Of a stretch of DNA of 25,811 bases, positions 9,317 through 20,422 are shown piece after piece; the stretch's first letter is position 1, and every line of letters starts with the position of its first letter. The position numbers were made by a program, and so were the translations under genes. The DNA lies in IMG/VR virus record IMGVR_UViG_3300033981_000257, positions 1 to 25,811 of that record. One strand, 5' to 3'. The notes beneath the pieces were generated by a model. The model ran no database searches, was not told where the DNA came from, and saw only the letters and a list, made by a program, of their open reading frames with translations. The DNA comes from a virus.

Positions 9317-11245
9317 TCACCTCTCTTCTTGAGTGGATAACAACCCCGGCAGCCGCCCGCCAAACTGGACCGAGCCCATCTTCTTTGCGGCGCGTGTCGC
9401 GGCGTCCTGCATCAGCTTTCTGTCTTCAATGTCGAGCCTGTCGAGTACGGCCATCTGCTGCTGCGGGTCCATCTGCGTGAGCATGCGCGCCATGTCCTCT
9501 CGCACCGCCGGCGTCAAGCCACGGAGCCGGCCGCCAGCGATGTTGAGCAGCGTCATAAATCGCGACGCGTTATTGCCCATCGCAAACTGCGTGATCTGCT
9601 CGGTGCGCGCCAGCTGGTCGACGCCAGCGCCACCGGCCGCCATCCTGCGCGCCGTGTCTGGTCCTATGTTCGGGTTGATCTTGCGGGCAAACTCCTGCAG
9701 GCGGCGCTCTTGCTTGATACGAAGCGCGGCCTGCGCGGCCTGCTCCGGCGTCTCTGCGATGAACTCAAGAAAGTCTCTGTTTTGCTTGCTCGAGACAAGG
9801 GCACGCGCCATGCCTGCGTCGTCCATGCGGGCGAGGTTGTTATAGAAAGCGTCTCGTGCGGTGTCACGCACAATGCCCTGCTGGTCTGGGCTCAATGCGC
9901 GGAGCGCGACCTTGCGATCAGACTCGGACATTGCGCTGAATTTTTGGCCAAGCTCCGATAGCCGTATCAGCTCGGAGTCCTCAAAGAACCGAGCACGCGC
10001 CGCGGCATACTCTGGCACCAACGTCTTGACGCGTGTATCGAGCTGGTCAAAGAGCGCCTTGATACCAGAGGCGTTCACGTCTCCGGCGCGGAATGCCTGG
10101 TCTCGCTTTGCGCCGACTGCACGCATGAGGTAATCCAGCGCGGCCACCGACGGGTAAGCGTTTTGGATTAGGTTCCCCTGTTTATCGACAAGGTCCGGCA
10201 ACTTAATTTTCTCTTGCCGCTGCGCGTTGACCTGCGCCTTTTTATAGAGCGCACGAAGCAACGGGTCGCCGACGATCGTGTTGACGATCTCATCGTCTTG
10301 CACGATCCCGACCGCACGAGCGTCGCCATATAACTGCGTGGCGTTCGCGTTGCGCATGTCCTTGAACTTTTTGAGGACGTCCTGCGTAAACTGACGGTTT
10401 CCGCCGGTCATCTCGTTGACTACCTGCATCACGCGGGCGCCAGAGCCGCCGAGGACATCTTCTGATACCGCACGCGTTACGTCCGCGGCCTGTCCGCCGC
10501 CGAGAGCGGCGCGCTCCGCGGCCATCTGCCCAGACTGGCCCATCATCATCCCGAGCGGGTTGAGCTCGCCGGGTCTCCCCGAGAGGATCTGCTGCCGCAG
10601 CTGGTCCGTCGTCATGCCAGCCTCGCGCATCGCGCCGAGCACCTCCTGCGAGGCAACACGCGGCTCGTCTGGACTGAATGCCCTGCCCATGACAGACCGT
10701 GCGCCACGCGCAAAGTCCATCGCCGCGCCAAAGGCGGGCCCGGTGACCGCGCCGGTTGCGCCGCCCGTGATTGCGCCAGAGGCGCGGCTCCCAGGCTGCG
10801 CCTCGAGGCCGCCCTGCACAGCGCCCGTCGTGCCGCCGATACCGGCCTGCGTCAAGAGACGCCCGCCAGCGCCGGTGACCGAGGTCAGCTTGCCAAACGG
10901 GTTGGGCGACGCCAGCGCGCCGGCAAACTCCGAGGCTGCGTAGGTGAACGGGTTGGCGCGCCGCATGGCCTCACGCTCCGCGGCCTGTTGCTGCATGCTC
11001 TGGCCGTAGGGCATGACCCCAGCGCCAGATTCGATCGCCGCGATGGCCTCGTCGGCGCCGCCATACGTGAGCCCCTGCCCAAAGCCGCGGATCGCGGTCT
11101 GGAGCATCCCAGGCGCCTCCGGCTCTTGAGGCTGGCTCGTGACGCGGGGCATCTTTTGCTGCCTCACGCGCTCAATCACCTCCGGCTTGGTCCCCTCTGG
11201 GAATACCGCGGTCGTGCCGTCTGGCATTGCTACCTTGATGCTCAT
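9317..11245 (-). CDS. Large virion protein, probable internal/ejection protein
   Basis: This 642-residue protein begins MSIKVAMPDGTTAVFPEGT then KPEVIERVRQQ, a start found on many large podovirus structural proteins. A Gly/Ala-rich region (about 50-170, with GFGQGLTYGGADEAIAAIES and ITGGATGAVTGPAFGAAMDF) may interact with membrane, and the rest is helical and charged. Position among the last virion genes, just before the lysis cassette, fits an internal (ejected) protein that helps DNA cross the envelope. No lytic transglycosylase motif is visible. Shine-Dalgarno GAGGGGAT supports ATG at 11245. Confidence 0.65.
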   Translation of the reverse strand: MSIKVAMPDGTTAVFPEGTKPEVIERVRQQKMPRVTSQPQEPEAPGMLQTAIRGFGQGLTYGGADEAIAAIESGAGVMPYGQSMQQQAAEREAMRRANPFTYAASEFAGALASPNPFGKLTSVTGAGGRLLTQAGIGGTTGAVQGGLEAQPGSRASGAITGGATGAVTGPAFGAAMDFARGARSVMGRAFSPDEPRVASQEVLGAMREAGMTTDQLRQQILSGRPGELNPLGMMMGQSGQMAAERAALGGGQAADVTRAVSEDVLGGSGARVMQVVNEMTGGNRQFTQDVLKKFKDMRNANATQLYGDARAVGIVQDDEIVNTIVGDPLLRALYKKAQVNAQRQEKIKLPDLVDKQGNLIQNAYPSVAALDYLMRAVGAKRDQAFRAGDVNASGIKALFDQLDTRVKTLVPEYAAARARFFEDSELIRLSELGQKFSAMSESDRKVALRALSPDQQGIVRDTARDAFYNNLARMDDAGMARALVSSKQNRDFLEFIAETPEQAAQAALRIKQERRLQEFARKINPNIGPDTARRMAAGGAGVDQLARTEQITQFAMGNNASRFMTLLNIAGGRLRGLTPAVREDMARMLTQMDPQQQMAVLDRLDIEDRKLMQDAATRAAKKMGSVQFGGRLPGLLSTQEER

Positions 11246-11256
11246 GTCTTATCCCC

Positions 11257-12456
11257 TCACCAGTTGCCAGCGGCGCCGCTGCGCCTGCCACCGACTCGGT
11301 TTCCGTTTGCGTCGTACTCTTCGACGGGCCCGGCCCGCTCGAGGATGGATCGAATCATCTGCCCCTGCACCGGCGCCGGAAGCATCGGGTTCGGGAACTG
11401 GCGTATACCAATGTCTACGTCTGGACCAGTGATCGGTCCGGTCGGGTTCTGCACCATCGCGATGCCGGCGCCGCCCGTGGTCGACGGCCCGATTAGGTCG
11501 GCGTTGGCAGACTCTACGATTGATCTTCCAAGGTCACCGACAATCGGGAGGCTGGTAATCATCCTCGCGGTGCCGCCTTGCAACACGCGACCGCCGCGTG
11601 TGCTAATCAGTCGCTCGATCTCTTCCGGCGTCATCGTCTTGAGCTTCTCGACGCTCACTCCGGTGAGGTTCGACGCGTAGGTATAGGCAGCGTCGCGGGT
11701 CATGTTCACGCCGGACTGCTGGCGGGCGTTGAGGGTCTCGCCCGCACCGCCCTCTCCCTTCGGCGTGTATGGCGCGCCGACCGGCGTGCCGGTCGTTTGC
11801 CCCGGCGCGATCCACATATCCTGCACGCGACCATCCGCTAGGCGCACCTGCCGCAGCGTCGGCTGCGGAGCTTCTTTTGGCTGCCGCACCTCGCGCTGGA
11901 TAACCCTGCGGTCCTCTGGGTTGCGACGGTTGACAGCCACGAGCCCGACGCCGGGCACGTTTTGGTAAACGTACTCTTCCGGCTTCATGCCCTCCTGGGC
12001 CGCGGTCGCGAGCCCCGGCGAGATCTGCGCCACGTCGAGTCCGGCACGAGTGCCAGAGAGCATCGCCATCGCGGCGGCAGGGTCTTGACGGTAGCGCGAG
12101 GTCAATCGCGTCGCCGGCTCAAGCCCAGGCGCCGTCTCGATCTGGCCGAGAGATTGTCCACCATAGACGCGGCCGGCGATACCCGGCAGCGCGGCCTCTG
12201 CGGCGGCTTGGCGCTCGCGGCCCCTTTGCGCCTCGAGGCGTGCGCCGGTCATGGCGGCTACGCGCTCAAGGTTCGCTGTCGGCGTGGTGCCACGCGCCAT
12301 AGCGTCAAAGATTGCGGTCGCAGCCTGCCTGCGTATAGCTCGGCGTTCTTCCTCTGAGAGGCTCTCGAGGTTCTCTCCGAGCAAGCCGCCGATGTTGCGC
12401 TCAAGGTTTTTCCCAATGCGCTGCGGAATTTTTCTCAATGCGTCAAGCAATGCCAT
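11257..12456 (-). CDS. Virion-associated protein, probable internal protein
   Basis: This 399-residue protein begins MALLDALRKIPQRIGKNLER. The N-terminal 100 residues are charged and helical; the middle is rich in Ala, Gln and Pro (about 165-240, with VYQNVPGVGLVAVNRRNPED); the C-terminal part has TMTPEEIERLISTRGGR and Gly-rich stretches. I do not recognise the family. Position between the repeat fibre gene and the 642-residue protein suggests a component of the ejectosome or tail. ATG at 12456 is chosen because GGGAG lies about 8 bases upstream; a TTG two codons earlier overlaps the previous stop. Confidence 0.6.
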   Translation of the reverse strand: MALLDALRKIPQRIGKNLERNIGGLLGENLESLSEEERRAIRRQAATAIFDAMARGTTPTANLERVAAMTGARLEAQRGRERQAAAEAALPGIAGRVYGGQSLGQIETAPGLEPATRLTSRYRQDPAAAMAMLSGTRAGLDVAQISPGLATAAQEGMKPEEYVYQNVPGVGLVAVNRRNPEDRRVIQREVRQPKEAPQPTLRQVRLADGRVQDMWIAPGQTTGTPVGAPYTPKGEGGAGETLNARQQSGVNMTRDAAYTYASNLTGVSVEKLKTMTPEEIERLISTRGGRVLQGGTARMITSLPIVGDLGRSIVESANADLIGPSTTGGAGIAMVQNPTGPITGPDVDIGIRQFPNPMLPAPVQGQMIRSILERAGPVEEYDANGNRVGGRRSGAAGNW

Positions 12457-12458
12457 TG

Positions 12459-12734
12459 TCAATCTCCCAAGAGGCCGCCGCGTACCTTGCGACCGCCATA
12501 CATGCTGTACATGCCGCCATAGTATTTGTTCGGGTCATAGACTGGCGCGCCGCCCTTCCCTTGCGCTGCCTTTCCGAGGAACGACGCCAGGTCTTCCTCT
12601 TCGCCGCCCTCTGCGCCCATGCCAGAAAGCTGCCCAAGAATATCCATTAAGCCGCCCTTCTTTTTCTTTGCCATCTCGCGCAGCAGCGGATTGGTCTCCG
12701 CGCTGAACACCGTAGGCCCGCCAGAGACTTGCAT
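12459..12734 (-). CDS. Small hypothetical virion-region protein
   Basis: This 91-residue protein has a basic patch (MAKKKKGGLMDILGQLSG), an acidic patch (AEGGEEEDLASFLGK) and a Gly/Tyr-rich end (NKYYGGMYSMYGGRKVRGGL). The ATG at 12734 overlaps the stop of the large repeat-fibre gene by one base (TAATG), so translation is likely coupled. No family is recognised. Neighbours suggest a virion or assembly role. Confidence 0.65.
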   Translation of the reverse strand: MQVSGGPTVFSAETNPLLREMAKKKKGGLMDILGQLSGMGAEGGEEEDLASFLGKAAQGKGGAPVYDPNKYYGGMYSMYGGRKVRGGLLGD

Positions 12735-15283
12735 TATTTCTTCCCCTTGCGCTTCTTGCCTTCCACCTTGGCGTCGAGCTCTTTGACGGCCTCCGTCAAG
12801 AGCCCGACCACCCGCGGGAAGTCGACCATCATCTTGCCGTTGTCGGCGTACTCCACGGCCTCGGGCATCTCGTCCTCCACGTCCTGCGCGGAGACGCTCA
12901 TGCTCTTGCCATCTGGCTTCTGGCCATTCTCTTCAACGTCGTCCTTGTACTCGTCCTCCCACTCGAACTCGATCCCCTTGAGTCGGTTGACCTTGTCGAG
13001 CGGGTTCTTGATCTTGGAGACGTTCTTCTTCATGGTCTCGTCGGAGAACCCGGCGATCGTGCTGCCGATCTGTCCGGCCATCTGCCAGTAACTCGGGCGG
13101 CTCGTGACGGTCCCCGTCTGGGTCACGTTGTACGGGCTCGCCGCGATGGCACCCTGCCGGATCGCGAGCTGCTGCAGCGGGTAGTTCTGCTGGCGAGAGA
13201 ATTCCTGGTACTGCCGGTCGAGGTACTGCTGCATCAAGTTCTGCTGCGCAGACCCGAGGCCGGTCATGGCCGCCGCAGCGCCGTATCGGTTCTGGAGCGC
13301 AGTCTGCCCAAAGTCGCCGAGCTGCGCCGCCGCGCCAAGCCGGAACTGCGCCGCCTGCTGGCCCGCGCCTTGGTTGGCGAGCGCCGCACGCATGGCCTGC
13401 TCCGCGTTGAACTGCTGCGACGTCATGCCCATCTCTTGCGCACGCTGCCGCGCCGCTTGGTTGGCGAGCGCGATCTGCTGGAGCTGCTGCGCGTTGAACT
13501 GCTGCTGCCCCTGCGTCATCTGCTGGCCCTGCAGCCGCGCCGCTTGGTTGAGCCGCGCCGCCTCGAGCGCCTGCTGGACGTTGAACTGGCCGGCCTGTAG
13601 CCCAAGCTGCTGCCCCGTCTGGGCGGCCTGCTGGTTCGCCAGAGCCGCCCGCAGCGCTGCCTCTTGGTTGGCCTGCCCAGCCGTGAGGCCCATTCGCTGC
13701 GCCTCGAGGGCGGCCTGCTGGTTGGCCTGCTCTGCGGTCAAGCCGAGGCGCTGGGCCTCCTGGCGCGCCTGCTGGTTGGCCAGCTCCGCACGGAGCTGCT
13801 GCTCGACGTTGAACTGACCCGTCTGCGTGCCGAGCTGTTGCCCCTGCAATCGCGCCTGCAAGTTGGCGCGCTCGGCCTCGAGCATCGCCGCTTGGTTCGC
13901 TCTGGCCTCCTCCGCCGTGAGCTGCGCGCCGGTAATGTCTCGGGCTTGGTTGAGGCGCTGCGCCTCCAGCATCGCCCGCTGATTCGCCTCCTCGGCGGTC
14001 ATGCCGAGCTGCGCGGCCTGCTGTTGCGCCTGCTGGTTCGCCAGCGCGGCTCGCACCTGCTGCTCCACGTTGAACTGGCCAGCGGTGAGGCCAAGCTGTT
14101 GCGCCTGTTGCTGGGCGGCTTGGTTCGCGAGCGCGGCGCGCATCTGTGCGTCCACGTTCGCCTGCCCCGCCGTGAGCCCAAGCTGCTGCAGCCGAATGTC
14201 GCGCTCTTGGTTGCTGATCTGGCCCGCCTGCGCGAGCTGCATCACATTCTGCACCGCCTGCTGGTTCGCGAGCGCCGCCTGCTGCTGGCGCCCCACGTCG
14301 GCCTCGCGCAGACCCGCGGCCTCGCGGAAGCCCTGCGCACGCTGCTCCGCCACGAAGCGGTTCCGCTCACGCGCCGCTTCGCCCGCGGCGATGCCCTCCT
14401 CAATCGCCGCACGCGAGCCGCCAAAGGCGCGGGCCGCGGTGGCGCGTGCCGAGCGGCCGGCGCGGGCCTGCTCCTCGGCGCGAGAGATATCAGCGAGGCC
14501 AGCCTCAACCACGGCCTGCTGGTACGGGTTTTGGTAACGCGCAAGGTCTTGGTCCAAGAAAGAGGCACCCTGCACCGTCGGCGCCGCACCCGGCGCGCCG
14601 ATGTCACGCGCCGCAAACTGCGTCCCGATCTGCCCCGCGCCTACGGTCGGCGCAGCGAACTGCGTCGCGACCTGCCCGGCAGAGACCGGTCCGGCTGCGC
14701 CAGGCGCCGCGATGCGCCCGGCGGCGATCTCTCGCGCCGTGAAGGGCGTCGCGATCTGCTGGGCGCCAATCTCGCGCACCGCGGCGGGGCCACCCGCCAC
14801 GCCTGCGCCCGCCGTTGGCGCCGCAAACTGCGTCGCCACGCCGGGGGCACCAAACTGTGTCGCCATGCGCTCGGCACCGACGCGCTCCGGCGCAAACTCC
14901 GTCCCGACCTGCCCGGCGCCCACGGTGTCAACTGTGGTACCCGGTATCACAGTGGCAGCCTGCGCCGTCGGGGCGCGGAACCGCTGCTGCGTCGTCGGCG
15001 CAAAGACACGCTCGGGCTGGAAGCCGAGGTCGCGCTGCACCTGCCGCGAGGCGAGGTCCAACTCTGGGACGAATCCACGCTCTCTCGCAATCGCCCGCGT
15101 CATCTGCTCGCCGCGCATGTAGTCCTGCGTGAAGGGCGCCGTCAGCAGCCCTTGGTAGGGAGTGAACGGCACCGAGGCGAGCTGGTTCGCCAGCTCGATG
15201 TTAGAGAGGACGCTTGCGTAGACGGCCGGATCAATCTCGGTCTTCTGCGTCTCGGTCTTCTTGGATTTGAAAAGGTTGCTCAC
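12734..15283 (-). CDS. Giant Ala/Gln-rich fibre protein with C-terminal S74 intramolecular chaperone
   Basis: This 849-residue protein has four parts. Residues 1-120 form a unique head. Residues 121-235 are Gly/Ala/Pro-rich with recurring ATQFAAPT-like segments. Residues 366-644 hold nine 29-residue helical repeats (type QQLGLTAGQFNVEQQ followed by RAALANQ) and one 18-residue partial unit. The end is a peptidase S74 chaperone: FSDETMKKNVSKIKNPLDKV (Ser747, Lys752; same five-residue spacing as in endosialidase), LKGIEFEWEDEY, VSAQDVEDEMPEAV and VGLLTEAVKEL. S74 domains trimerise a fibre, then cut themselves off before the Ser. Mature protein would end near residue 746. It is probably a trimeric, mostly coiled-coil fibre or tail needle. 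The GTG start at 15283 (GTGA overlap) has GGAG upstream. Confidence 0.85.
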   Translation of the reverse strand: MSNLFKSKKTETQKTEIDPAVYASVLSNIELANQLASVPFTPYQGLLTAPFTQDYMRGEQMTRAIARERGFVPELDLASRQVQRDLGFQPERVFAPTTQQRFRAPTAQAATVIPGTTVDTVGAGQVGTEFAPERVGAERMATQFGAPGVATQFAAPTAGAGVAGGPAAVREIGAQQIATPFTAREIAAGRIAAPGAAGPVSAGQVATQFAAPTVGAGQIGTQFAARDIGAPGAAPTVQGASFLDQDLARYQNPYQQAVVEAGLADISRAEEQARAGRSARATAARAFGGSRAAIEEGIAAGEAARERNRFVAEQRAQGFREAAGLREADVGRQQQAALANQQAVQNVMQLAQAGQISNQERDIRLQQLGLTAGQANVDAQMRAALANQAAQQQAQQLGLTAGQFNVEQQVRAALANQQAQQQAAQLGMTAEEANQRAMLEAQRLNQARDITGAQLTAEEARANQAAMLEAERANLQARLQGQQLGTQTGQFNVEQQLRAELANQQARQEAQRLGLTAEQANQQAALEAQRMGLTAGQANQEAALRAALANQQAAQTGQQLGLQAGQFNVQQALEAARLNQAARLQGQQMTQGQQQFNAQQLQQIALANQAARQRAQEMGMTSQQFNAEQAMRAALANQGAGQQAAQFRLGAAAQLGDFGQTALQNRYGAAAAMTGLGSAQQNLMQQYLDRQYQEFSRQQNYPLQQLAIRQGAIAASPYNVTQTGTVTSRPSYWQMAGQIGSTIAGFSDETMKKNVSKIKNPLDKVNRLKGIEFEWEDEYKDDVEENGQKPDGKSMSVSAQDVEDEMPEAVEYADNGKMMVDFPRVVGLLTEAVKELDAKVEGKKRKGKK
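13352..14188 (-). repeat. Nine 29-codon (87 bp) repeats plus an 18-codon partial unit
   Basis: In protein numbering the full units start at residues 366, 395, 424, 453, 482, 529, 558, 587 and 616. The partial unit is 511-528. The consensus is roughly QQLGLTAGQFN-x(5)-RAALANQ-x(6). The repeats are coding and diverged at DNA level. The 18-residue unit lacks exactly 11 residues, which keeps helix phase. Confidence 0.85.
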
Positions 15284-15651
15284 AGTTTTTTCTCCAATAC
15301 CACCGCCGTGCGGCGATATCCTTCAAGCGCCCGCTGCCAGCCGGGGCGGCCCATTATCAGCATCATCTGGCACCCAATAGAGCGTGCCCATTCCTCGACC
15401 ACCGGGCGGATCACGGTATCAATCTCGTTCAGATCGCCGGCGCCTATGATAATCGTCAGTTGTTTGACGCGTGGGAACACGTCGATCGTCGTGATGACGC
15501 ACGAGTTGGTTGAGGTCCAAAACTGGTATTCACCGCGCTCGATGCCGTCGATAACGTCGTCGTAGGTCAGCTGCCCGTAGCCCTCGGCGAGCGCACGCTC
15601 GATCAGCTCGCGGAACCTGGAGACGTACTCCATGCCCTCGATCGCGCTCAT
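15280..15651 (-). CDS. Conserved phage protein, hypothetical (possibly GNAT-like)
   Basis: This 123-residue protein contains LIERALAEGYGQLTYDDVID, WTSTNSCVITTIDVFPR, LTIIIGAGDL and MGRPGWQRALEGY, ending TAVVLEKKL. The pattern of a central strand pair followed by MGRPGW...GY is common in phage proteins next to tail genes and looks distantly like an acetyltransferase fold, but no cofactor loop can be confirmed. ATG at 15651 overlaps the nozzle-gene stop (ATGA) and its own stop overlaps the fibre start (GTGA). A fibre-assembly or modification role is only suggested by this coupling. Confidence 0.65.
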   Translation of the reverse strand: MSAIEGMEYVSRFRELIERALAEGYGQLTYDDVIDGIERGEYQFWTSTNSCVITTIDVFPRVKQLTIIIGAGDLNEIDTVIRPVVEEWARSIGCQMMLIMGRPGWQRALEGYRRTAVVLEKKL

Positions 15652-17123
15652 CGCTCGCCGCCCGCTACGGCGTCGAGCCGCATCGTCCCCACGCGCCAGT
15701 CGGTGTTACTCGCGCCCGTGACGCGCATCTCGATCTGGCGCCCAGAGAAGCGCACCGGCGTGTAGGGGCTGTCGATGGTGTAGGTCTTGACGACCTCGCT
15801 GCCGAGCGGCGTGAAGCGAGTCTTGAACTGCACCCCGACCGAGCCCTGTGTCTTCTCGTCTGCGATCAACTGCCGCGCCACCATGATCCGATCGCCGTTG
15901 CCGAATTCGATCGGCCCGGTCTGTGCGTAGGGCGTCGCGCCGTCGTAGGCCACGCCGACTTCGTGTTCGTACACGTAGCCGTCGGTCGAGACCATGAGCG
16001 GATAGTTGAAGACGCCGCGGTCGGTGCCCGCCGTGCGCGCCAGCGTCCCGATGGTCCAGTGGTTCTCGCGATAGTTGAAGACCACGTAGGAGTCGTTCTC
16101 GTTGTTGGTCGCGCTCGGGTAGAACCACCAGATCTCACCGTACTGGTTATTCGCCACGGCGTAGACCTTCGAGCGTTGCTGCTGCGAGAGGTTGCCGGTC
16201 ACGTAGTCGAGCACCTCGCACTTGATCGGGCGCACGAAGCCGTCGTACATGAAGAAGCCCGCCGGGCTCCACCAGTACGCGACCGACTCCACCGCCGCCA
16301 CCGCCTGCGCGCTAATAAGCCCGCAGCCCGTCGCGATGCGCTCAAAGCCATAAACAAAGGGCGGCCCCTGGTACTGCGCCGCGTGTACGTCGACGTCGGT
16401 GAAGATGAGGTTGACGCCGCGCAGGCGCTTACCCGCGACGATCGAGCCAACGGTCTCGAGTTCAATGTCGCCGGCTTGGTTCGTGACCGCCGGGGTCCAC
16501 ATGGTGTTGTCTTCTTGGTCGCTCCACTGCACCTTGCGTGCGTTGCCGCCCGCGCCGAGCGCGAACACAAACCGCTCGGCCGTCACGAGGACGGCCTTGT
16601 TACTGGTCGGGGCGTTGGTGAGCGCCGCGGCCTTGTTGTTGACGTCAAGATCCCACTCGAGGATCTTGCCGTCGGCGTTGGAGCAGGCGAGCAGGAACTC
16701 GCCCCAGTTGTCGAGGCTCCACGTCGTCGCGGGCGTCACGGTGCCGGTGTCGGCGCGTGGGGTGCCGTAGGCGAAGATCCCGTATGGGCCGCCGCCATAG
16801 CCAAGGTTCAGCGTCGCGTCTGCGACGCCTGCCGTGAAGCCCGCCGTCGGCGTGATATCCGTCAGCGTCCCCGACTCGCTCATCGCGTAGAGCTTGCTGT
16901 GCGTACCGAGCCCGATCCAGCGTGCGTTGGCGTTGCTGCGCCACGCGATCACCCCGCGGCACTTGCCCGTCATCTGGCCGCTTGCGCGCTTACGCCAGCC
17001 GCCGATCGGGCGCATCGTGGCCTCGTACCAGCGCACGAGGCTGGCGTCGCGCCAGCGCCCCTTTGACTGATAGTCGGTGCCGTTGCTGTAGACGCCGGGC
17101 TGAATGTTGATCGGCAGCAGCAT
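15648..17123 (-). CDS. Tail nozzle / beta-propeller-like virion protein
   Basis: This 491-residue protein begins MLLPINIQPGVYSNGTDYQS, then WRDASLVRWYEATMRPIGGW, a start widely shared by podovirus tail proteins. Repeated Trp-rich blade-like segments follow (TTWSLDNWGEFLLACSNADG, VQWSDQEDNTMWTP, VAYWWSPAGFFMYDGF, YGEIWWFYPS), and the last part (about 400-491) is beta-rich. This fits a propeller protein of the type forming the nozzle or tail plug (compare T7 gp12 and P22 gp10), reasoned from pattern, not alignment. Shine-Dalgarno GAAGGTAG supports ATG at 17123. Confidence 0.7.
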   Translation of the reverse strand: MLLPINIQPGVYSNGTDYQSKGRWRDASLVRWYEATMRPIGGWRKRASGQMTGKCRGVIAWRSNANARWIGLGTHSKLYAMSESGTLTDITPTAGFTAGVADATLNLGYGGGPYGIFAYGTPRADTGTVTPATTWSLDNWGEFLLACSNADGKILEWDLDVNNKAAALTNAPTSNKAVLVTAERFVFALGAGGNARKVQWSDQEDNTMWTPAVTNQAGDIELETVGSIVAGKRLRGVNLIFTDVDVHAAQYQGPPFVYGFERIATGCGLISAQAVAAVESVAYWWSPAGFFMYDGFVRPIKCEVLDYVTGNLSQQQRSKVYAVANNQYGEIWWFYPSATNNENDSYVVFNYRENHWTIGTLARTAGTDRGVFNYPLMVSTDGYVYEHEVGVAYDGATPYAQTGPIEFGNGDRIMVARQLIADEKTQGSVGVQFKTRFTPLGSEVVKTYTIDSPYTPVRFSGRQIEMRVTGASNTDWRVGTMRLDAVAGGER

Positions 17124-17658: not shown

Positions 17659-17809
17659 TGTCCGTCTCCTTCTGTTCGGCTTGCGCTTTTACTTGCGCGT
17701 CAATCTTAACCAACAACGGCCACGCGCCGCTGCTCGTCGGAAGTTGTCCTAATACTTGCAGGATGGCCTGCACTTCTTCGGGGATAAGCTTTAAGTTTAT
17801 TTCTATCAC
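17651..17809 (-). CDS. Small helical protein after the tail fibre
   Basis: This 52-residue protein starts with GTG at 17809, overlapping the tail-fibre stop (GTGA). The sequence [20 protein letters not shown] then [20 protein letters not shown] is helical and amphipathic. It fills the 150-base space between fibre and the next gene and carries the latter's ribosome site. Small proteins of this kind are common after phage fibres; function is unknown. Its first half is AT-rich like the fibre's C-terminal part, so it may have been acquired with it. Confidence 0.6.
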
Positions 17810-19095
17810 GACGTTAATGCTCCGGCTAAAATTGCAACTGCAAATGTTTGTGTGCCAGCAGATTTATTTTTTAATGTTGTGGTGTGGCTTGCTGCATTTT
17901 TATAAACCGCAAAATCAACACCTGTATCTGTTGCCTCACCGTTGCCAACTAGTTTCGTTACTGTTGCAGAATAATTTGCCCAAAATAAACCACCATTTCC
18001 AGAGCCTGTTACATATACAGAAATAAGTGCGCCGCCAGCAACAGCCGAAGTTAAATCAATGGACGAACCAGCCGTAAGAGTAACGGTTGAGGTTGAAGTA
18101 ACTTGCGCTCCGTTCCAATTATTAGTGGCTTCAATTCTCGTATTGCCAACATCTGTGCGGCCAGCAAAGTAGTTCCGCGCCGTCCCCGCTGCATAGAAGT
18201 TCCAGCGGTTTGAGCCAGAGGCGATGTTGCTGAAGAAGCCGTAGTTGTTGGTGGCTCCGGTGAGGCTATCTGCAACAGAAAATCCATATTGATTGGTTAC
18301 GGCTGACCCTGCACCCAAAGTTTGAGGGTCTGCTTCAAAATGGATGAGATTGGTTAAAGTAAACGCTGTTGCTTGCGTTACTGGGCGAGACAAAAAACTA
18401 CGATAACTAGCCGTTGTGCCGCTTGGAATTGTGCCGCTTAAACGCACAACTTGAGTCGCGTTGCTTGATGTCGGATATGTCCCAAGCAGATTAAGACGAG
18501 AATATGCCTCCGCCGTCCCGCCAATGCCGACGTTGCCCGCCTGATCAATGACCATGCGCGACGTAAGCGAACCACCATTCGCTTTGGTATAAATGGTCAT
18601 CTTGCCGCCACGATTGTTGGCGGTTGCGCCTTCTGTCTCTACGTCAATCTGTGCAGTTCGGATGCCGGAAGTGTTGTCAGTTGCGACAAACGCAATGGTA
18701 TTGGTGTTTCCAGCAGCATCTGCTCGCACGTTCTGCAACTGCAATATGCCGCCGCCCGCTGCGCCAGAACTGACGTTAAATACGGTTCCGCCAAATCCAA
18801 CAGGGTTGATGTTGGTAGTGCCGAGGGCAGCATTCCCCGACGTATCAATCCTCATACGCTCGCTGCCGCCGGTATTAAAACCTAACGGCAAATATGTTCC
18901 GCTGACGCTGTTTCTGTCTACGGAAATGCTTGCTTCTGTAGAATTTAAGGACATCCGAACATAACCAGCGTTGGTTGTATCGGAGTTATTGTTCAAACGG
19001 ATTCCAGAAGTAACCGACGTTCCATTTGGAATAATTTGCAAATCAGTATTGCCGTTCGTCGTACTAGTCTGAAATGCCAACCGATTGCCAATCGT
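17806..19095. other. AT-rich block inside a GC-rich genome
   Basis: From about 19095 leftwards to the fibre stop, the third codon positions become rich in A and T (many AAT, ATT, ACA, GTT codons), unlike the first 215 codons of the same gene and unlike flanking genes. The switch is abrupt, within a few dozen bases. It looks like horizontal replacement of the receptor-binding part of the fibre. Confidence 0.7.
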
Positions 19096-19746
19096 CGCAT
19101 TGGACATATCGCCCGTGATGCGCTGGCCGGTGGACGAGAAGGTGAGGTTGCCGGTGGAGACGGTCGCGGAGGTAAACGTACCCGCCGCAGCGGACGAGCC
19201 GCCGATCGTGGTGCCATCAATCGCGCCAGAGTCGATATCCACCTTGGTAATGTTTACCTCGCCGGTTCCGTTCGGCGTCAAGTCAATATTGCCGTTGGTA
19301 TCGGTCGAGGTAATGGCGTTTCCGGAAAGATTAAGATTATCTACCGCCAACTCTGTGCTGACTGTAATCTTGCCAGTGCTGTCCGCAATCGTGGCGGCGG
19401 CGGTGCCGTCCTTGGCCTTGATGTTCGTGACTTCGACGTTGGTTGCGTCTACCGTCGTAGCGTTCACCGCCGTAGAGGTCAGCGTGTTGATCGTGATGGC
19501 GTTGATCGTGCCGCCCTCGACCTTGTCGCCGCTGATCTGATTGTCAGCGAGCGTCAGCGTGCCGGACGAGACGTTCAGCGTCTTGCCGGTGCCGACGTTC
19601 AAGCCCACGGACGTGCCGTTGCCGGCGGCGGCGAAGATGCCGTCGATCGTGTCGAGGTTGGTGTTGATCTTGCCGCCCCAGGTATCCGCCGAGGCGCCAA
19701 CCTCCGGCTTCGTGAGGGACAGGTTTGTGGTTGTCGTGTCAGCCAT
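17806..19746 (-). CDS. Tail fibre protein with mosaic C-terminal region
   Basis: This 646-residue fibre begins [19 protein letters not shown] then [19 protein letters not shown], the usual N-terminal attachment start of many phage fibres. Repetitive beta segments follow: [51 protein letters not shown] and [15 protein letters not shown]. The last is typical of receptor-binding fibre shafts. The end (about 560-646) looks like a compact beta tip ([20 protein letters not shown]). It should bind the host surface. The gene's first third is GC-rich; from about residue 217 on it is clearly AT-rich, suggesting exchange of the receptor-binding part. No S74 domain is seen. Ribosome site GAGGT precedes ATG 19746. 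Confidence 0.85.
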
Positions 19747-19756
19747 GTCTCATACC

Positions 19757-20422
19757 TCAAGCGGCCTGCAAATAGGCCGGGTGTGTCTTTTCCGTCCAAG
19801 TCCGCGCCGTGTCACTCGCCGGCGTCCATGTCTCTGCCGTGTCGCTCGCCGGGGTCCACGCAACGACCGTGTCGCTCGCGGCGCTCCAGCTCTCTGCCGT
19901 GTCGGCGATCGGCGTCCAGCTCTCCGCCGTGTCTGGGTCGTCTTCCCACTTCTTGCGCCCCACACACGTCAGCGTCGCCGCCGCAGAGACCGCGCAGGAT
20001 GCGCTCTGCACCCTGTTGCACGTCGCCGTTAGCGTAGCCTCTGCGGCCATGCTCGAGGCGCCCTGCTGTATCCGCTGCCCCGCCGCGGCCAGCGTAGCGG
20101 CCGCAGAGAGCGCCGCAGCGCCTTGCTGTATACGCTCCGCCTGGGCGGTTAGCGTCGCCGCGGCAGAGAGCGCCGCCGCGGCATTCTGTACCCTCGTCGC
20201 CGACGCCGTGAGCGTCGCCGCCGCACTCAGCGCCGCGGCTCCCTGCTGGACCCGCGTCGCGCTCACCGTGAGCGTCGCCGCAGCGTTCAGCGTCGCCGCA
20301 CCCTGCTGGATGCGCACCCCGGCGACGACCAGCGTCGCCGCGGCGTTTAGCGTGGCCGCCCCCTCTTTGGGGTCTATGCCATAGTTGCCACGCCCGTATA
20401 AGCCGCTGCCGTATCCGGCCAC
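19757..20422 (-). CDS. Repeat tail protein with 20- and 10-residue units
   Basis: This 221-residue protein starts with GTG at 20422 and MAGYGSGLYGRGNYGI, a Gly/Tyr-rich head seen in other phage tail proteins. Six 20-residue units and one partial unit follow (residues 21-156; type GAAALSAAATLTASATRVQQ), then a basic joint (RKKWEDDP), then five 10-residue units (164-213; type DTAETWTPAS) with one Trp each. The repeats suggest a solenoid or extended rod built by unit addition. No enzyme motif is present. It is placed between the adaptor-side gene and the fibre, so it is probably a tail or fibre-connecting component. Ribosome site is poor; the preceding stop lies three bases upstream. Confidence 0.75.
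   Translation of the reverse strand: MAGYGSGLYGRGNYGIDPKEGAATLNAAATLVVAGVRIQQGAATLNAAATLTVSATRVQQGAAALSAAATLTASATRVQNAAAALSAAATLTAQAERIQQGAAALSAAATLAAAGQRIQQGASSMAAEATLTATCNRVQSASCAVSAAATLTCVGRKKWEDDPDTAESWTPIADTAESWSAASDTVVAWTPASDTAETWTPASDTARTWTEKTHPAYLQAA
19784..19933 (-). repeat. Five 30-bp (10-codon) tandem repeats
   Basis: The units encode DTAESWTPIA, DTAESWSAAS, DTVVAWTPAS, DTAETWTPAS and DTARTWTEKT. They are exact in length with no gaps. A Trp occupies position 6 of each unit. Confidence 0.85.
19955..20362 (-). repeat. 60-bp (20-codon) tandem repeats, six full units and one partial
   Basis: Units start at protein residues 21, 41, 61, 81, 101, 121 and 141, with no insertions. On the plus strand the phrase AGCGTCGCCG recurs every 60 bases through most of the block. 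The fixed 60-base period and high DNA similarity suggest recent unit duplication. Confidence 0.9.

Follow-up and report, generated by a model that had tools for sequence, protein, structure and literature searches.

Paired repeat arrays of coupled length in a virion protein of short-tailed phages suggest a strand-clamped helical rod

The protein considered here (the rod protein, after its proposed shape) resembles, in part, a number of described proteins. One is gp27 of Sinorhizobium phage phiM5 (ARV77528; PHROG 4287), which is syntenic, has a homologous core and ends in an S74 domain, but is only 468 residues long, has no 29-residue array and is annotated as a tailspike in its record and as a DNA ejection protein in PHROGs. 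Another is gp53 of Pseudomonas phage LUZ24, which occupies the same gene slot and displays weak profile similarity (in a YxPY...GSSRxGVAEGIA hairpin and in the C-terminal core), but this 313-residue protein has neither arrays nor an S74 domain, and its C-terminus is Gly-rich and hydrophobic. Gene 7 of phage P22, which encodes an ejection protein, similarly comes after the hub and gene 14, but no sequence similarity to its product was found, i.e., the equivalence is positional only.

The C-terminal S74 domain (also named the intramolecular chaperone auto-processing, or ICA, domain) is homologous to those of endosialidase NF, MyRF, a tail fibre (PDB 8jov) and a neck appendage (PDB 3gud), with which it shares a Ser-x4-Lys dyad; in these proteins beta-helical or beta-rich stalks precede the domain. 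The idea of a long helical rod is shared with the tail needles P22 gp26 and SU10 gp18, but these are encoded in another gene slot, no similarity to them was seen and they have no known paired strand array. In proteins of the influenza HA2 type an extended chain packs antiparallel along the helices of a coiled coil, within its groove, but, unlike in the rod protein, this arrangement is not known to be repetitive or variable in length.

The stretch of DNA that was analyzed (the window) is a linear virus record of 25.8 kb (25,811 nucleotides), which harbors head, tail and replication genes of a short-tailed phage of the LUZ24/phiM5 type. The rod protein (Table 1) belongs to a family that is already known, as unnamed or ejection-type phage proteins. 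Our main reading, to which we assign a probability of about 0.7, is that it is a strand-clamped straight helical rod and an internal (ejection) virion protein.

Table 1. Features of the rod gene and of the neighboring genes in the window (aa, amino-acid residues)
Feature	Position	Strand	Remarks
Repeat protein with C-terminal S74 domain	12734..15283	-	849 aa, GTG start; ORF call and orthologues
Conserved N-terminal domain, residues 1-90	15014..15283	-	predicted helices 19-36, 51-66, 74-85
N-terminal partner array, residues 91-225	14609..15013	-	nine 14-aa and one 9-aa units
Short 9-aa N unit PGVATQFAA (147-155)	14819..14845	-	would face the 18-aa helical unit
Conserved helical hairpin, residues 240-345 (YxNPY ... 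AFGGSR)	14249..14566	-	
Asn ladder, diverged start, residues 331-366 (N340, N358)	14186..14293	-	upstream of the first-reported array
Helical array, residues 367-645	13349..14185	-	nine 29-aa and one 18-aa units; Asn each 11 or 18 residues
Short 18-aa helical unit, residues 512-529	13697..13750	-	
Conserved post-array region, residues 646-746 (RLGAA ... YPLQQLAIRQGA ... SPYN ... AGF)	13046..13348	-	
Peptidase_S74 / intramolecular chaperone auto-processing domain, residues 747-849	12737..13045	-	dyad S747-K752
642-aa protein, internal-virion-protein position	9317..11245	-	phrog_5880
401-aa protein, internal-virion-protein position	11257..12462	-	position as in phiM5
91-aa protein, directly after the rod gene	12459..12734	-	
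GNAT-like 123-aa protein	15280..15651	-	relatives annotated acetyltransferase; homologue of LUZ24 gp54, phiM5 gp26
Nozzle / P22 gp10-like stabilization protein	15648..17123	-	relatives annotated phage stabilization protein
Beta-type tail fibre candidate, 646 aa, without S74	17806-19746	-	weak match to phrog_29288

Two matched repeat arrays in one chain

The preliminary description reported nine 29-residue units and one 18-residue unit in this 849-residue, minus-strand protein. The repeat is real, with its units at residues 367−645, although the coordinates then given were one residue off (now nt 13349−14185). At a lag of 29 residues the identity is 0.434, compared with at most 0.252 at the best lag in any of 500 shuffles, and the 87-nt spacing was also found by DNA-level tools. 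The array is marked by a ladder of conserved Asn residues, which starts at N340, earlier than first reported. In the orthologues that were first parsed, 168 of the intervals between these residues span 11 and 163 span 18 residues, mostly in alternation, while the few other intervals arise from extra Asn residues within an interval. The true substructure of the unit is thus 29 = 18 + 11, and the short unit is one without the 11. Two consecutive steps of 11 never occur among the orthologues, and all 16 distinct array lengths found in 52 orthologues equal a base length + 29n + 18m. The orthologues are 450 to 985 residues long and differ mainly in the number of units, with 1 to 13 helical units per relative. 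An evolution by gain and loss of units, as originally proposed, is borne out by near-identical phages that differ by whole units (L136 and L121 by 29 residues, L013 and L014 by 58).

A second array, missed in the preliminary description, is found at residues 91−225. Its 14-residue unit has the pattern xxV-x-A-G-x-V-G-T-x-F-x-A and displays an identity of 0.32 at a lag of 14 (95% level of shuffles, 0.24); variants with 16, 11 and 9 residues are found in the N-terminal (N) arrays of relatives. In the window protein, ten N units face ten helical units in antiparallel order, and the sole short N unit is then located opposite the sole short helical unit. In the orthologue L046, the reversed N array 14,16,14,16,14,11,14,11,14,11,14,14 faces the helical array 29,29,29,29,29,18,29,18,29,18,29,29.

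Both arrays were parsed by dynamic programming, each without reference to the other, which yielded 21 distinct combinations. The unit numbers are equal in all 20 of the distinct arrays that were parsed automatically. Among these orthologues, which are related to one another, and with an N-array parser whose seed units were taken from orthologues already seen to match (i.e., not blind to unit types), the antiparallel order places short units opposite short units in 18 of 18 cases and long units opposite long units in 126 of 126, while in the parallel order only one of the 18 short units faces a short one. The unit classes match in 128 of 144 pairs (5000 permutations: mean 70.7, maximum 92). In the 21st array, that of L094, the helical side was mis-parsed, and a by-eye reading agrees with the rule. 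Another 16 sequences failed the anchors; 13 were read by eye and conform to the rule, apart from unusual units in L019 and diverged ends of L023, L024, L136, L121 and L120.

The coupling is also seen in regressions on length, which are independent of the unit parser. The distance from the N-terminal domain to the hairpin scales with that from the hairpin to the post-array motif with a slope of 0.503 ± 0.009 (r = 0.998, 16 distinct pairs), and with looser markers the N and helix lengths correlate with r = 0.987 over 44 distinct geometries; the length of the C-terminal part shows no such co-variation (r = 0.12). In a paired test that allows for relatedness, based on a tree of the conserved core, the ratio was 0.48−0.57 in 17 of 18 non-overlapping, phylogenetically independent pairs. 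The outlier is L129, where the N length is too short because an internal ATG was taken as the start. In a distant subfamily (B), whose repeat sequences are unrelated, some of whose members were retrieved once the length rule had been stated and whose first test had few anchors, the slope is 0.488 (r = 0.9999, five distinct arrays), with steps of 18:10, 33:16 and 44:21; subfamily C, with two usable points only, gives a ratio of 0.50. The distant subfamily with different repeats, found both with and without S74 domains (L071, L079, L080, L084, L170−L200), follows the same 1:2 rule.

The loss of 11 helical residues is accompanied by the loss of five residues from the N array (14 to 9, 16 to 11). 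Eleven residues of a helix correspond to 16.5 Å and five residues of a strand to about 16 Å, and at 1.5 Å per helical residue the ratios give about 3.0−3.1 Å per N-array residue. The simplest physical reading of the length ratio is that of a helix beside an extended chain, with which it would be in contact. At the level of sequence, the two arrays, their one-to-one antiparallel matching, the constant length ratio, the S74 domain with its dyad and the surrounding gene order are established.

We consider a paired-array architecture to be highly probable. The middle part of the protein would form a straight α-helical rod, a shape that had been suggested earlier and receives indirect support from the 1:2 length match with the N array. 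The latter would fold back antiparallel on the rod as an extended strand, with one strand unit per helical unit, probably along the Ala/Gly/Asn face of the helix. Phages would gain or lose the two partners of a pair together, and the number of pairs would determine how long the rod is. It appears moderately probable that the arrangement is a previously undescribed fibrous architecture. In this case, each unit of a long straight helix would be zipped to one unit of the antiparallel, extended N strand of the same chain, with conserved Asn rungs at each 11 or 18 residues facing strand rungs at each 5 or 9, and the rod would change in length during evolution as paired units are gained or lost in a coupled manner. 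In a limited literature search, reverse-order pairing of two arrays within one chain was not found.

The S74 domain and the place of the protein in the virion

The earlier view of helical repeats whose phase is preserved upon deletion of 11 residues agrees with a period of 3.625 residues for Ala, Gln and Asn. The bulky apolar face of this helix is located roughly opposite its Ala face, and the Kyte−Doolittle hydrophobic moment is below the 95% level of shuffles. As judged from its residue pattern, the helix is two-faced rather than a standard coiled coil; the simple trimeric coiled coil of the preliminary description is disfavored, as there is no single hydrophobic stripe, and a canonical left-handed coiled coil (single stripe, period near 3.5) was rejected on the basis of the period and the low moment. 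The bulky face, opposite to that of the strand, would pack in an oligomer, for which the S74 domain suggests a trimer.

The assignment of the S74 domain itself stands (Pfam PF13884, 39 bits against a cut-off of 22, residues 747−810), including its catalytic dyad. S747 and K752 are invariant in 33 orthologues, and equivalent dyads are S911/K916 in endosialidase NF and S587/K592 in MyRF; S74 domains function as trimers (PMC8326128). In the rod protein the domain would trimerize the chain, aid its folding and cut itself off before S747, and the post-array region would then likely be the C-terminal part of the mature protein. L139, a close orthologue in which the arrays are the same, has no S74 domain, and its chain stops where the domain would begin in the window protein. 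Some distant relatives have the domain and many do not, and several of those without it end in Gly-rich hydrophobic segments. A removable folding domain, the cleavage of which would leave a C-terminus natural to the S74-less relatives, fits this distribution. The combination of this domain with a helical protein is not unique to the window, as several relatives have it too.

The order of nozzle, GNAT-like gene, rod gene and internal virion proteins is the same as in phiM5 and LUZ24. In phiM5, the syntenic gp27 was detected in the particle, and three internal virion proteins are encoded next to it downstream. PHROGs includes gp27 over its full length in phrog_4287, under the label "DNA ejection protein", which is an annotation and not a test. 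The family has a homologous hairpin and C-terminal core, and gp27 matches its profile with E 4e-61. The match of LUZ24 gp53, which is encoded in the same slot, is weak (E 4e-6, max mode, small set); this protein is recorded as a phage particle protein. In phiGT1 the slot is occupied by another S74 protein, followed by injection proteins, and the gene that precedes it is named IVPA and is homologous to P22 gene 14 (PMC10386132). In P22 no frame was found at E ≤ 10 with the rod-family profile in max mode; such proteins diverge strongly, so that the lack of similarity to P22 gp7 lowers the likelihood of membership among the ejection proteins and does no more than that. The GNAT-like gene was also considered as a homologue of P22 gp14, which is not detectable by sequence. 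Matches in the PDB were found for LUZ24 gp56 (entry 9nwi, six chains) and gp55 (entry 9nxp, three chains), which fit a nozzle and a needle, respectively, where gp55 would be the needle from its chain number and position; LUZ24 gp53 has no match among the solved PDB structures. From the slot, the homology to phiM5 gp27 and LUZ24 gp53, the PDB matches and the presence of a separate tail fibre gene, the best reading is that of an internal (ejection) virion protein in the P22 gene 7/LUZ24 gp53 slot. We regard this assignment as moderately probable, and the protein may have a role in genome ejection.

The preliminary description instead proposed a fibre or needle in the form of a trimeric coiled coil. 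In this view the rod would protrude from the tail, with the S74 domain as a fibre-tip chaperone. The trimeric action of S74 domains (PMC8326128) and their common occurrence on fibres would be consistent with such a structure, as would the size of the longest arrays. These span about 500 residues between markers, or about 75 nm if straight, compared with a roughly 60-nm head; rods too long to fit straight in the head are hard to reconcile with an internal protein, except if the rod bends or forms after ejection, and their size favors an assembly or extension that takes place outside the head, where a needle or fibre would be better placed. Furthermore, the window has no other needle gene between the nozzle and GNAT-like genes, and the needle role is kept in consideration because the usual slot holds no needle candidate. 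However, the rod gene is found after the GNAT-like gene, the only gene in between, and not directly after the nozzle gene, while in LUZ24 it is gp55, directly after the nozzle, that matches a solved three-chain protein, with gp53 two genes further on; this match also weakened an assignment as needle by synteny with the SU10 and P22 gene orders, which had been considered first. In addition, there is a separate beta-type tail fibre gene, the protein belongs to the LUZ24 gp53/phiM5 gp27 family in an internal-virion-protein cassette, the S74 domain is absent from L139 and many distant orthologues, and the helix lacks a single hydrophobic stripe. Taken together, a needle or fibre is unlikely.

Other observations were made in the same gene cluster. 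The nozzle and GNAT-like genes (15280−17123, minus strand) overlap directly, with no needle gene where LUZ24 has gp55. Flanked by the tail fibre gene and a gene for a head protein, a minus-strand gene at 19757−20422 encodes a 221-residue protein with Ala-rich repeats of ~20 residues (AAATLT...RIQQGA), followed by several 10-residue DTAxxWTPAS repeats. A glycosyltransferase-like gene (phrog_34859; 21404−22228, minus strand) is located within the structural cluster and overlaps a gene for a 210-residue virion structural protein.

Structure prediction and other explanations of the pairing

Monomer models from AlphaFold2 had a mean pLDDT of 43.5 for the window protein (33 rows) and 57.1 for the short orthologue L101 (48 rows), and gave no usable fold; in these models the N array is coil and the helix is broken at most G-L/M-T motifs. 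A Foldseek search with the L101 model gave no PDB match below E 1 and, in BFVD, matches mostly to unnamed phage proteins. A sequence search of the PDB with the rod protein alone gave no match, while the search with the family profile returned S74 entries only.

The breaks in most units at G-L/M-T, and a T/S-A-E-E/Q motif that resembles a helix N-cap, would agree with an α-solenoid, where each 29-residue unit is a helix broken at G-L/M-T to which an N unit adds a strand or loop, and this pairing of stacked modules also predicts unit-for-unit matching. Yet, the ratio is near 0.5 across unit sizes (11:5, 18:9−11, 29:14−16, 33:16, 44:21), as expected for a linear rise and not for fixed modules, the Asn/Ala phase is held at 3.625 residues per turn throughout the array, and the Gly motif is missing from some units, which makes the solenoid doubtful, slightly more so than the needle or fibre. 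Co-variation without contact, where each array measures the same third object or phages swap whole matched gene variants, is very improbable. In its favor, the arrays are about 140 residues apart in the chain and phage genes recombine as blocks; against it, the match extends to the position of the short unit and to the 14/16 class, in reverse order, and it recurs in the independent pairs (17 of 18), some nearly identical, and in a subfamily with unrelated repeats.

The match of the two arrays, in unit number and size class as well as in their reversed order, is strong evolutionary evidence for a fold missed by structure prediction, and it provides a virion protein that is widespread among phages with a structure exact enough to be tested. 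More generally, where an alignment lacks the depth needed for co-evolution methods, coupled repeat numbers may point to contacts within a chain. The relatives, with their 1 to 13 units, would form a natural series of graded rods, with which the determinants of rod length in short-tailed phages could be studied.

Two deviations from the regular arrays were also observed. In a clade composed of L136, L121, L118 and L120, an additional RQAELGAMGDQASRILEAQR segment is found at the end of the helical arrays, and the N array opens with an irregular APTxDPRVxAERIGAERVGASL unit. In the 861-residue orthologue at L019:2682-5264, there are unusual N units that end in GAP and the helical array contains an irregular stretch, which offers a natural test of the tolerance to mismatch.
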